This document shows, piece by piece, positions 47,140 to 50,279 of a DNA stretch of 64,000 nt. The notes under the pieces are model-generated. The model worked only from the letters and a program-made list of their open reading frames with translations, did not search any database and was not told where the DNA came from. The stretch spans positions 1-64,000 of the forward strand of contig MKVL01000030.1 of assembly GCA_001899205.1 (NCBI GenBank). Reading direction: 5' to 3'. Position 1 is the first letter of the stretch, and each line of letters opens with the position of its first letter. A program made the translations under genes and the position numbers. The stretch comes from Mesorhizobium sp. 65-26. GTDB taxonomy: Bacteria; Pseudomonadota; Alphaproteobacteria; Rhizobiales; Rhizobiaceae.

Positions 47140-48300
47140 ATGTCATTGCTTTCGAACACGGCCGATCGCGCCCTGCCGCGTATCGTCGAGGCGATCTACG
47201 ATTCGATCGCCGATTTCAGCCTGTGGCAGGACACGCTGGATGCCATCCGCCGGCTTGTCGAGGGGCAGCTCGCGATGCTCGCTGTCGTCGACACGGTCGG
47301 CAATTCCGCGCGCTTCTCCGTATCCAGCGGCGACCCCGCCTTGCTGGGCCCGCTCGAGCAGAACTATGGCTCGGAGGTCCCCTTCTTTGCCGCCGTGCCG
47401 AAGATGGATATCGACGTGCCCTTCACCGTCGACACGATCTATGCGCTGCAAGGTCCGGATACGCGGCAGAAGTGGCTCGACAGCCGTATCGCCCGTGAAT
47501 GGGTGATCCCCAACAGGCTCGACGACTTCTTCTGGGTCGCGCTGATGAAGCAGCCGACGCGGGTCGGTACGCTGATGGTCGTGACCGACAAGGACCGGCG
47601 GCAGATCTCCGACGAAGACCTTGAACTGGTGTCGTCGCTGGCGCCGCATGTGCGACGCGCGGTGACCATAGGCGACCTTTTCGAGGCCGAGCGGCGAAAG
47701 GTGGAGATTTTCCGCAGCATCATCGAAAGCCTCGACCATCCCGTGATGATCGTCGCCGACGACATGCATGTCATCTTCGCCAATCCCGCGGCTGAAGCGC
47801 TGATGGCCGACAATGAGGCGGTCTCCTGCGTGCGCGGGCAACTGTCCTTCGCCTACGCCCAGGCCAACGCGGCGATCGGCAACGCGGTTGAACTCGGCAC
47901 CCGCGACGAGTTCGCGCTAGGGCCTGCCGGCATCAACATCCCGCTCGCCAAGGTCTGCGCGCCGGCCGTCGCCCATGTCATGCCGCTGGCGCGACGGACG
48001 ATCTCGGCCCGGCTGACGCAGCGGGCCGCGGCCGCCATTTTCATAGCGGCGGCGGGTTCTGCGCCGACACCGGCCCTGGAAGCCATCGCGGCGCTGTTCG
48101 GCCTGACCGCGGCCGAGAAACGCGTCGCCGGCCACGTGGCGGCCGGCCTGACGCGCAAGGAGATCGCAGTCGCCGGAGGCGTGTCCGACGGCACGGTCAA
48201 ATCGCAGCTCGCGACGATCTTCGACAAGACCGCCACCAGCGACCAGCGCGGGCTCGAACTGCTGATGCGGGAGCTGTCGCCGCCCCTGCGCTCGATCTGA
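47140..48300 (+). CDS. LuxR-family transcriptional regulator with PAS-like sensor
   Basis: A 386-residue regulator. The C-terminal 65 residues form a LuxR HTH (FGLTAAEKRVAGHVAAGLTR, KEIAVAGGVSDGTVKSQLA). The middle contains a PAS-like segment, SLDHPVMIVADDMHVIFANP (about residues 197-216), and the first 170 residues form an uncharacterised domain with SIADFSLWQDTLDAIRRLVE, common in rhizobial orphan LuxR proteins. No autoinducer-binding pattern is seen, so it is not a quorum-sensing receptor. The start at 47140 is ATG. It has no plus-strand partner gene. Confidence 0.88.
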   Translation: MSLLSNTADRALPRIVEAIYDSIADFSLWQDTLDAIRRLVEGQLAMLAVVDTVGNSARFSVSSGDPALLGPLEQNYGSEVPFFAAVPKMDIDVPFTVDTIYALQGPDTRQKWLDSRIAREWVIPNRLDDFFWVALMKQPTRVGTLMVVTDKDRRQISDEDLELVSSLAPHVRRAVTIGDLFEAERRKVEIFRSIIESLDHPVMIVADDMHVIFANPAAEALMADNEAVSCVRGQLSFAYAQANAAIGNAVELGTRDEFALGPAGINIPLAKVCAPAVAHVMPLARRTISARLTQRAAAAIFIAAAGSAPTPALEAIAALFGLTAAEKRVAGHVAAGLTRKEIAVAGGVSDGTVKSQLATIFDKTATSDQRGLELLMRELSPPLRSI

Positions 48301-48379
48301 AGGATCGGGTTTTTCGGCACGGCATCTTGCGATCCTTGTCGCGACACCCCATCATGATGGCGTGTTCAACAAATCGAAA

Positions 48380-48565
48380 GGAGGTGATCCGATGTCGAGT
48401 GATTTCGTTTTCCAGAACGTGGCCGCAGCGGATTGCACTTTCGGGAAGCAGTCTTCCCGCTAGGGCGCGAGACGCGCGGCTGGCGATCGAAAGATCTCAG
48501 CCAGGGCCGCGCCATGGACGGAAACACGGAAGGCCGCCACTTCGGATGAAGGGGCGGCCTTTTCC
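48380..48565 (+). ncRNA. Candidate structured small RNA / short-peptide transcript
   Basis: A compact locus between the LuxR gene and the TadG-like gene. It contains, in order, a perfect anti-SD complement AAAGGAGGTGATCC (48378-48391), a 23-codon frame, a seven-base hairpin CGGGAAG/CTTCCCG (48442-48459), a long stem-loop GCGCGGC-TGGC-GATC-GAAA-GATC-TCA-GCCA-GG-GCCGCGC (48474-48512) and an intrinsic terminator ending at 48561. Such a series of stems within 180 bases is unlikely by chance. No Rfam family is recognised. Confidence 0.5.
48392..48463 (+). CDS. 23-aa peptide with a perfect Shine-Dalgarno
   Basis: A frame of 23 codons beginning MSSDFVFQNVAAADCTFGKQ and ending SSR. AAAGGAGGTGATCC, complementary to the full 3' end of 16S rRNA, ends directly before the ATG, an unusually strong initiation signal in this window. 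The last third of the frame lies in a hairpin (48442-48459). There is no membrane or export signal. The peptide may be functional, or translation may serve to control the transcript. Confidence 0.45.
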   Translation: MSSDFVFQNVAAADCTFGKQSSR

Positions 48566-48566
48566 T
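48530..48566 (+). terminator. Intrinsic terminator of the short locus
   Basis: AAGGCCGCC (48530-48538) pairs perfectly with GGCGGCCTT (48553-48561); inside, CTTC/GAAG (48540-48543, 48548-48551) extends the stem around GGAT. It is followed by TTCCTTTT. It also faces the convergent TadG-like gene. Confidence 0.85.
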
Positions 48567-48596: not shown

Positions 48597-49955
48597 CTAT
48601 CTGGTCAGCGCCAGATTGTCGATGTTGCGCACAATCGTCTGGAAGGCCGCGTCGAGCTCGGCGCCGCTGGCAGCCTGATAGAAATGCTTGGTGCTCGCCG
48701 TATCGGGACTGGCGCAAGCCTGAAGGGTCGACTTGGCGTTCGCCTCGGTGAGCGCAAAGCCGATCGTGAAGATTTCGATACCCTGGTCGCGCATGGCCGA
48801 ACACAGCGTCGTCGCGGCCGTGCGAGTCTGAACCTTGCCGGCGCTGTTGTAGACCTGCCCGACACTGTTGGCGTCGAAATAGGACAGGTTGAACTCACCG
48901 TCGGTCATCAGGATCACATATTTCGAGACCTTCTTCGGATCCAACTTGGCTGGCCGCTCGGATGTCTTCAGCACGCTTCCCCAGTTTTCCGATAGCATGT
49001 ACCAAGCCCATTGCACGCCGATGTGCCCGGCGGTGCCGCCGGAGGCGACAAGGTCCTTGATGACATTGTTCAGCGATGTCGCGTTCGCGGTCAGCGGCTG
49101 CAGCGTCGCGGCCGGACAGGCGGCCGTGCTGGTCTGGCGGGCGAAGTCCGACAGATAGAAATCGCGATTGACCATGCTGACGTCCGGACCGGCATCCGAA
49201 TATTGATAGGTTCCCTTGCGCTCCGTGGCACAAGTGTCTGACGGGGTCGCGGAAGCGCTCCTCGCGGCGGTATTGCCTGGTGCCTGCTTGCGATCGCTGA
49301 CCGTGGCCTCGGCGTAGACGCTGCTTGTGGAGAGCGAACCGACGTTCACCGAATTGGCATAGGGCACGATCGCTACTCGCACCCGCGGATTGGAGGCATC
49401 CTGGCCGGTAAGCAGCGAAGTCACGGCGTTGCTCGCCGCCGTCTTGAGATCCTTGATCTTCTGGCCGGCCATCGAGCCGGTGACATCAAGCATCATCGCC
49501 ACTTCGACTGTCTTGTTGGAATAGAGCGCCGAGGTCGTGGCGGGCACGCGCTGTGTGGCACCCATGCTGAACAGCGGAAAATAGAAAGCCACATCGACGT
49601 GGACGTCGGCCTGGACCGTTTTCGCGGTCCTGTCGACCGTCAGTTTGTCGAGCACGATCTGGTTGGCCTGAAGGATGCCGGCCCCGCTGTTTGCATCGAG
49701 AAAAGCCTGCACGGATGTGTTCGCATCGGCCTCCTTGATGACGCCGAGAGTGAGATCGCGCGCCGTCGACGTCACGGCGGCGTCGACCACGCCCTGCAAG
49801 CTCGATTTGGCATTATAGATTTGCGATATGTTGACCGCGAAGCCAACGCCCAGCGCCAGGACGGACGCCACAGCGCCGAGCAGAATGGCGAAATTGCCGC
49901 CGCGATGGCCGACGAACTCGCCGGCGGTGCGATTTTTACCTACGAAGTGCCCCAT
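48597..49955 (-). CDS. TadG-like pilus-assembly protein with vWA domain
   Basis: A 452-residue protein. One N-terminal membrane helix (GNFAILLGAVASVLALGVGF, about residues 20-39) is followed by the TadE/TadG-type stretch AKSSLQGVVDAAVTSTARDL, then a von Willebrand A domain with MIDAS DVTGSMAGQKIKDLKT (about residues 152-167) and a late ILMTDGEFNLSYFD. Such proteins often belong to Flp/Tad adhesive pilus systems, but in Rhizobiales orphan copies are common, as here, where no tad genes are near. ATG 49955 is chosen; the longer frame upstream has no signal-like start. Cysteines in the C-terminal half may form disulfides. Confidence 0.88.
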   Translation of the reverse strand: MGHFVGKNRTAGEFVGHRGGNFAILLGAVASVLALGVGFAVNISQIYNAKSSLQGVVDAAVTSTARDLTLGVIKEADANTSVQAFLDANSGAGILQANQIVLDKLTVDRTAKTVQADVHVDVAFYFPLFSMGATQRVPATTSALYSNKTVEVAMMLDVTGSMAGQKIKDLKTAASNAVTSLLTGQDASNPRVRVAIVPYANSVNVGSLSTSSVYAEATVSDRKQAPGNTAARSASATPSDTCATERKGTYQYSDAGPDVSMVNRDFYLSDFARQTSTAACPAATLQPLTANATSLNNVIKDLVASGGTAGHIGVQWAWYMLSENWGSVLKTSERPAKLDPKKVSKYVILMTDGEFNLSYFDANSVGQVYNSAGKVQTRTAATTLCSAMRDQGIEIFTIGFALTEANAKSTLQACASPDTASTKHFYQAASGAELDAAFQTIVRNIDNLALTR

Positions 49956-50279
49956 TCGATCGCTCTCCTCGCGGCGGCAATTTCCCTGCGCCCACCAATG
50001 CCGGTGCAGGATTTCTGCCGATTCGGATTCGGGCGCAGCCCGAGCGCGATGAAATGGGTTTAGACCATTGTTTTTATTGAATTTCCGAGGAAAGAGCAGT
50101 AAACAAAAAGTAAACTCGAAAGCGATGTTTACGATATGCTCACCATAGGTTTCGAGACACCACTCCGGCCGCGTCCGGCACGTGTCGTTGCGGCACACGC
50201 GCGCTGTGCCGAATCGAACCAGATGTCTCGGCGTGGGAGCGTCTGAAAAAACGGACGATCGCTACTTTCAACTTGATCG
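49956..50279. promoter_or_regulatory. Gap before the TadG-like gene with repeated GTAAAC motifs
   Basis: A 324-base gap. AGTAAAC occurs at 50098-50104 and 50109-50115, exactly 11 bases apart (one helical turn), and its complement GTTTAC lies at 50127-50132. The stretch 50060-50135 is markedly AT-rich and probably holds the promoter of the TadG-like gene. No gene is seen. Confidence 0.45.

Follow-up and report, generated by a model that had tools for sequence, protein, structure and literature searches.

A diverged relative of the small RNA CC2171 in Mesorhizobium joins a maximal Shine-Dalgarno sequence to a short frame within a co-evolving helix

In a 64,000-nucleotide stretch of Mesorhizobium sp. 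65-26 (contig MKVL01000030.1, positions 1 to 64,000; "the window" hereafter), we find a compact element of ~200 nt on the + strand, which has the layout of a stand-alone RNA gene and comprises a 23-codon frame along with hairpins and a terminator. This is a real and widespread RNA gene, in part known before as an sRNA. What is new is the combination of a maximal Shine-Dalgarno (SD) sequence, a frame lying within a helix whose strands co-evolve, and apparent selection on translation and not on the peptide; its function we infer. Comparison among relatives shows that the element is conserved, that the two strands of its long helix co-evolve, that start, SD, and stop tend to persist, and that most groups lack amino acid constraint. 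We put at about even the chance that the element is a small RNA, not a peptide gene, and that ribosome loading and translation open its fold.

The element lies between a 386-aa frame upstream (47140-48300, + strand) and a convergent 533-aa frame downstream (48597-50198, minus strand); by eye, the former resembles a LuxR-type regulator and the latter a TadG/von Willebrand-type protein. A putative promoter, also read by eye, consists of CTTGCG (48326-48331) and CATCAT (48350-48355) separated by 18 nt; CATCAT is shared by a related locus (L017), and a consensus scan returned no sigma-70 site. From the presumed transcription start, the probable 5' leader GTGTTCAACAAATC (48362-48375) would run up to the SD sequence GAAAGGAGGTGATCC (48376-48390), which complements the 3' tail of alphaproteobacterial 16S rRNA and is preceded by CAAC in many relatives. 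The frame MSSDFVFQNVAAADCTFGKQSSR (48392-48463) opens with ATG at 48392 and closes with TAG; among relatives its start and stop tend to persist and its amino acids do not. Codons 3-11 form the 5' strand (48399-48424) of a long-range helix, P1, and pair with the bases directly ahead of the terminator (3' strand, 48505-48527), as indicated by the minimum free energy (MFE) structure and by the z and swap tests described below. A hairpin, GGGAAG-CAGU-CUUCCC, sits within the 3' end of the frame (48443-48458). It is followed by a possible small hairpin, GGCGCGAGACGCGC (48464-48477), suggested by its letters only and paired otherwise in the full-length MFE structure, and by a GAAA-loop hairpin (48478-48502) seen in the MFE structure. 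An intrinsic terminator with a U-rich tail (48530-48566) appears in both the MFE structure and a terminator scan; its hairpin lies at about 48530-48563, with a shorter version at 48548-48564 in the scan (0.5 expected in shuffles). All of these features are on the + strand. The folding energy of the whole RNA is -94.3, versus -72.3 for shuffles (standard deviation of 4.2; z of -5.3), and 0 of 200 shuffles were as good. The parts claimed in an earlier note, made from the letters of this DNA (SD, 23-codon frame, 3'-end hairpin, GAAA-loop stem, and terminator), are thus all present, with coordinates shifted by one base.

The same note had called the SD much stronger than that of any other start in the window, and this was borne out. 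The 20 bases upstream of ATG 48392 are predicted to pair with the 16S tail at -29.9 kcal/mol, which ranks first among 5106 ATG/GTG/TTG positions in the window, versus -19.6 kcal/mol for the next-best start outside the element. The 14-mer AAAGGAGGTGATCC is matched at 48377-48390 with 0 mismatches; this is its single exact copy in the genome, where one further site has 1 mismatch. At up to 3 mismatches, the window holds 4 other matches, each with 2-3 mismatches (4.08 expected by chance); only the exact match is notable, and the looser ones are at chance level. A mis-read 16S gene was ruled out: behind the motif comes a start codon and not helix 45, which is presumably what would stand there in a 16S gene, and Rfam at its gathering score finds no family but tRNAs in the window. 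Because searches found no 16S gene in the genome itself or in four others of the genus, complementarity was judged against a 39-mer RNA oligonucleotide given in the available part of an S. meliloti paper (PMC6943124).

The earlier note knew of no named family that fits, and in this it was wrong. Rfam family CC2171 (RF01867) matches 48368-48560, the full length of the element, at 34.6 bits (E of 5e-6 to 8e-6, relaxed thresholds), below the gathering score of 75 bits; at the gathering score, the window yields tRNAs only. Aligned to the Rfam model, the element has the conserved 5' module, CAAC..GAAAGGAGGTGATCC..RTGTC, the terminal G+C-rich hairpin, and a helix joining the early part to the pre-terminator region, but the letters and register of this helix (P1) differ from those of the Rfam alignment, and the element also has extra hairpins and another peptide. 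Its sequence makes it a homologue, though a diverged one, of CC2171, a Caulobacter RNA that Rfam types as an sRNA. The portion of the Rfam entry that we saw mentions no frame, and Rfam 15 records a single additional covarying pair for RF01867 (PMC11701678, in part). A member of the genus had already received the label: MH_s33 of M. huakuii 7653R, a 215-nt chromosomal sRNA from RNA-seq, is assigned to RF01867/CC2171 in the accessible text of PMC5596092, and is a probable orthologue. It shares genus and label with our element, a likeness by description and not by sequence, and differs in that both of its flanking genes are on the sRNA strand, whereas the downstream gene here is convergent. The passages on MH_s33 and CC2171 available from that paper do not discuss a frame or SD. 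Nor was the SD or the frame of CC2171 found to be described in the literature searched (CC2171, RF01867, and GGAGGUGAUCC with sRNA), as far as its accessible text goes and excluding the original Landt 2008 paper; the peptide start MSNEIS gave no literature match, and neither did anti-Shine-Dalgarno and dual-function combined with further terms. The earlier note had let its reading depend on conservation and a transcript; conservation is found, and the only reported transcript is that of MH_s33, the probable orthologue.

DNA relatives were found in 29 of 41 genomes, including 24 of the 25 in the genus (its own counted); outside the genus, 5 of 16 genomes matched, across leader, SD, and start only. 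At E≤0.01, a covariance model, R1, built on 16 Rhizobiaceae-type elements found matches in 152 of 198 family genomes, the lowest ones being partly weak and partial, with one match per genome save in three genomes. On 62 loci mostly from other groups, R1 gave a long match in 59 (E up to 0.0011); in two more, L192 and L199, it matched the 5' module alone, at 15.8 and 20.4 bits, which provides a yardstick for the module by itself, and at the module of L208 there was no match. Scanning the species genomes of GTDB for GAAAGGAGGTGATCCNRTGTC gave at least 119 stretches; among the 80 matches listed, 77 bear names that we take to be alphaproteobacterial and 3 are named just "Proteobacteria." RF01867 itself matches 8 of 9 relative loci tested, again below its cutoff, and its gathering score was passed in 4 of 150 genomes of the phylum. 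By sequence, relatives occur in several alphaproteobacterial orders, and RF01867 may be much wider than its curated cutoff shows. Matches to RF01867 outside the Alphaproteobacteria (4 genomes, E of 0.001-0.009) were taken as chance, since no stretch examined had a start behind an SD (in one, GGAGGTGATCC is present but lacks a start); the phylum search also gave a match in one non-alphaproteobacterial control, Deinobacterium chartae.

We sorted the relatives by peptide start into MSS/MSN (the type in the window), MSHGS, VSR..LE, KRCHLAG, SH/SHC, and others. Going by their named members, we take the first four to be Rhizobiaceae-, Sphingomonadales-, Rhodobacterales-, and Bradyrhizobium-type, respectively. 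Counts across relatives are inflated by relatedness, as kinship was left uncorrected. Two genus relatives (L019 and L020, genomes G016 and G020) match in two separate pieces, as if carrying an insert before the P1 3' strand. At L065 and L192, the SD-start module opens a longer frame of 56-59 aa (MSHGA.PV.A.LFG..ALLTAG..), by its look a small exported protein.

The exact 14-mer followed by NNTG is present in 63 of 385 genomes of the class (with 0 for a control pattern among the matches listed) and in 85 of 199 family genomes. Within the genus, 23 of 24 loci have the exact 14-mer; the exception, L013, has a T to G change and reads GAAAGGAGGGGATCC, with frame and start unaltered. A universal perfect SD is therefore ruled out, the exact 14-mer being usual and not universal. 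Among 40 family elements hand-picked from genomes with a model match but without the exact 14-mer, 20 have 1 mismatch, 17 have 2, and 3 have 3. An extra A within the SD, GAAAGGAAGGTGATCC, occurs in 15 of these 40 (L290, L293, and L295-L307, Rhizobiaceae-type), for which pairing is still -24.2 kcal/mol. These 15 loci retain the short frame, most with QPS plus one residue at its end.

For the structure, we aligned 26 of 38 non-redundant elements out of 82 candidates (A1), and a hand-chosen 16 of these 26 rows formed a second alignment (A2), from which we left out the remaining 10, whose P1 letters differ or which carry indels. In A2, 86.2% of cells were paired versus 43-50% in slid controls, and both sides had changed in 22 of 50 pairs versus a shuffled mean of 13.2 (reached in 0 of 500 shuffles) and 5-11 in the slid controls; the covariation score was 0.234 versus 0.170. 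The excess stems mainly from the hairpins and terminator: both-side changes were found in 3 of 7 pairs of the in-frame hairpin (99.1% of cells paired), 7 of 10 pairs of the GAAA-loop hairpin, yet with just 74% of cells paired, and 7 of 14 pairs of the terminator. P1 alone did not rise above shuffles in A2, whose sequences are much alike within it (both-side changes in 5 of 19 pairs versus 3.6; 93 of 500 shuffles), and RNAalifold on the 26 sequences retained just 7 P1 pairs.

Because of this result for P1, we compared the pairing of each element's own P1 strands with that of strands exchanged among relatives, using non-redundant elements and 2000 permutations; the input was the 220 of 263 elements with a recognized terminator. 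The own partner was better in 48 of 51 MSS/MSN elements (-28.5 versus -20.3 kcal/mol), 20 of 22 SH-type elements (-30.5 versus -23.9 kcal/mol), and 13 of 16 others (-25.4 versus -16.6 kcal/mol), with 0 of 2000 permutations as good in each case. The effect was weak in VSR..LE (4 non-redundant elements; 91/2000), there was no difference among 8 non-redundant Sphingomonadales-type elements (1450/2000), and Bradyrhizobium-type strands were too uniform for swapping. By this test, the two strands of P1 co-evolve. Compared with shuffles, the P1 duplex had a mean z of -1.79 over 166 elements, with p≤0.05 in 88 of them: 57/73 MSS-type, 13/17 SHC, 9/27 Sphingomonadales-type, 9/27 others, 0/9 Bradyrhizobium-type, and 0/13 VSR..LE. 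A cruder test on group alignments was unfavourable or uninformative for P1 in most groups; the Mesorhizobium-like, SH, and Bradyrhizobium-type sets gave no signal.

The peptides vary among groups (MSSDFV.., MSHGSA.., VSRVILERGVGT.., and VSYTKRCHLAGIAR), those of different orders looking unrelated past the first residues, and relatives starting MS[SN]E[IFY]S have 22-24 aa. Within groups, for sets limited to the commonest frame length, pN/pS was 1.10 (27 sequences; off-frames 0.74/0.79), 1.33 (34; 0.74/0.64), 0.76 (17; 0.71/0.85), and 1.15 (9; 2.09/0.90). The value of 0.76 belongs to VSR..LE and lies between its off-frames; purifying selection on amino acids was thus seen in none of three groups and, in the fourth, no more than in its off-frames.

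The limits of the frame are another matter. The 263 elements, each of which ends in a stop by construction, use TGA (135), TAA (87), and TAG (41). Counted at the site of the commonest stop, without a length filter, a stop is in place in 19/19 VSR..LE (with no TGG, 3.8 being expected by independence), 9/9 Bradyrhizobium-type, and 35/37 Sphingomonadales-type elements. In the Mesorhizobium-like set it is in place in 45/54, and its first base is barely better kept than its neighbours (entropy of 0.78 versus 0.84). Of 123 MSS/MSN-type elements that match a motif in the in-frame hairpin, [GA]GCA[AG][CT]C, read as [KE]Q[PS], 113 have it in one frame relative to the start, and in 109 of 110 with a single match it lies 52, 55, or 58 nt from the start (97 nt in the remaining one). 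In the other 10 of 123 it falls in another frame, some perhaps by chance, and 9 of these in a later count stop 9-22 nt from the motif; L093, L108, L280, L282, and L281 are instances. These patterns suggest, with kinship uncorrected, that start, strong SD, and stop position tend to be kept and that translation is selected while the peptide mostly seems not to be.

Predicted accessibility divides the family. Relative to shuffled bodies, the start codon is more open in MSS-type (0.85 versus 0.50, first 40 elements) and SHC-type elements (0.77 versus 0.43), with no gain for the SD core in MSS-type (0.40 versus 0.39 in the control), but it is masked in VSR..LE (0.06 versus 0.46) and Bradyrhizobium-type elements (0.00 versus 0.36), where the SD-start stretch fell below 10% of shuffles in 13/15 and 4/9, respectively. 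SD masking as a general rule is ruled out by the open start codons of the first two types. The element in the window is of the open type; its full-length MFE structure pairs part of the SD with the terminator tail. A universal anti-SD mimic (GGATCGCC-like stretches within frames) was likewise rejected, being clade-specific, with p = 0.36 for the element in the window. Over 174 elements the mean z was -0.89, with p≤0.05 in 25, and it was clearer only in MSS-type (mean z of -1.42, 18/76) and Bradyrhizobium-type elements (-1.72, 2/9); elsewhere the counts were 0/28 Sphingomonadales-type, 1/14 VSR..LE, 0/17 SHC-type, and 4/30 others. One locus, L184, has a perfect internal complement to most of the SD, CGGATCACCTCCG, downstream of the frame. 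Upstream of the element, GANTC (the CcrM/GcrA site) is enriched in the SH group (20/45 versus 8.1 expected) and depleted in the Mesorhizobium-like group (1/55 versus 11.1 expected), and 9 of 19 VSR..LE loci (e.g., L121, L128, and L133) have AAAATCTGTG or ACAAAATCTG upstream of the SD.

Could the element simply be a small mRNA, with the 23-aa peptide as its product, clade-specific functions, and a strong SD for high expression? Having the strongest SD in the window and a [KE]Q[PS] motif in constant frame from the start would fit this, as might S. meliloti SEP1, which is, according to the accessible text of PMC10117765, a protein of 23 aa conserved in Rhizobiaceae, with the top translation efficiency among 54 non-annotated sORFs and visible by Western blot when tagged. 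SEP1 resembles our peptide, by description, in length and Rhizobiaceae-wide occurrence, and it is our guess that it belongs to this family; its stated pI of 4.18 (PMC10117765) equals that of none of the 24 relatives computed, the nearest being 4.17. Set against this are the pN/pS values, the out-of-frame motifs with stops nevertheless close by, and the unrelated look of peptides from separate orders. The idea of a short-peptide gene in the usual sense, one of those offered in the earlier note, is weakened because in three of the four groups the codons change as an RNA would and not as a protein would, and those of the fourth are no more constrained than its off-frames; we regard it as doubtful. 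Still less probable, in our estimation, is a base-pairing sRNA with an incidental frame, in which the SD-like sequence serves as a pairing site, e.g., as a decoy for anti-SD sRNAs of the alphaR8/SisA family. Alphaproteobacterial sRNAs with UUUCCUCCCU or CCUCCUCCC, bindable by a free GGAGG, are described in the parts of PMC12559287 and PMC3927594 that we saw, and Rfam's typing of CC2171 points the same way; conservation, however, extends across UGAUCC as well as the start codon, neither of which an sRNA of this kind would require, and in three groups the stop is held in place while its identity changes.

We think it quite improbable that the RNA acts chiefly to sequester 30S subunits through 14-15 bp to 16S rRNA. 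The pairing energy of its extended SD (-28.0 versus -10.1 kcal/mol for AAGGAGG) would suit such titration, but a start codon, a stop, and a long helix would be needless for it, and the lineage with an extra A in its SD keeps everything else. In attenuators, hairpins and a terminator usually come after a short frame, and the element has this layout. Its downstream gene is convergent, though, and at 115 loci a mechanical gene caller placed the downstream frame in the opposite orientation in 68 and the same in 44, with none in 3, so that a cis-acting leader for a downstream gene is very improbable indeed; no conserved co-oriented downstream gene was found across these loci. The other part of the earlier note's proposal, a dual-function or ribosome-binding RNA, gains support from the covarying hairpins and terminator, the co-evolving P1 strands, and the tendency of start, SD, and stop to persist.

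For an RNA opened by ribosome loading and translation, the following course of events can be envisaged. The 5' landing site can pair with the whole 16S tail, and P1 begins just past the start codon. A 30S subunit would bind during transcription, before the 3' strand of P1 exists, and translation would start; the ribosome would then hold P1 open until it terminates at the stop just beyond the in-frame hairpin. In RNAs lacking a ribosome, P1 would close. Translation would in this way switch the RNA between an open form, whose 3' strand is available for pairing or cleavage, and a closed one. SEP1, if it belongs to this family, would fit such a course too. Translation of the frame in this strain, the switch itself, and a target of any kind are all inferred. 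Counting against translation in Caulobacter is a ribosome profiling study in which, in its accessible part, intergenic ncRNA regions are reported as not translated (PMC4117421; CC2171 is not named there). A small RNA with a translated, very short frame is known from S. meliloti, rnTrpL/peTrpL (PMC10117765, as excerpted), which differs in its leaderless start, its role as a trp attenuator, and its functional 14-aa peptide.

More tentatively, and with considerable doubt on our part, RNAs of this family may act across Alphaproteobacteria as sensors of free or specialized 30S subunits, the act of loading and translating an otherwise meaningless short frame being the signal because it decides whether the embedded helix can close. 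Since the landing site spans the whole 16S tail, 30S subunits whose 3' end is fully matured and unobstructed could be preferred, such as those without bS21, in the manner of the strong rpsU SD in Bacteroidota. The rpsU mRNA of Flavobacterium (Bacteroidota) likewise has an exceptionally strong extended SD, which, according to the sections available to us, can select a ribosome class in a bS21-dependent manner (PMC9976891); it differs in encoding the ribosomal protein bS21, in having no short frame within a helix, and in belonging to another phylum. In E. coli, bS21 is said to hinder extended SD pairing of the kind seen in S. aureus (PMC13009471, in part).

An sRNA of several alphaproteobacterial orders whose translation is seemingly selected and whose peptide mostly is not would be an unusual intermediate between sRNA and mRNA. 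It would offer a system in which the reading of ribosome availability or 30S composition by bacteria through an RNA can be tested directly, and it suggests that very short frames detected by Ribo-seq need not imply functional peptides.
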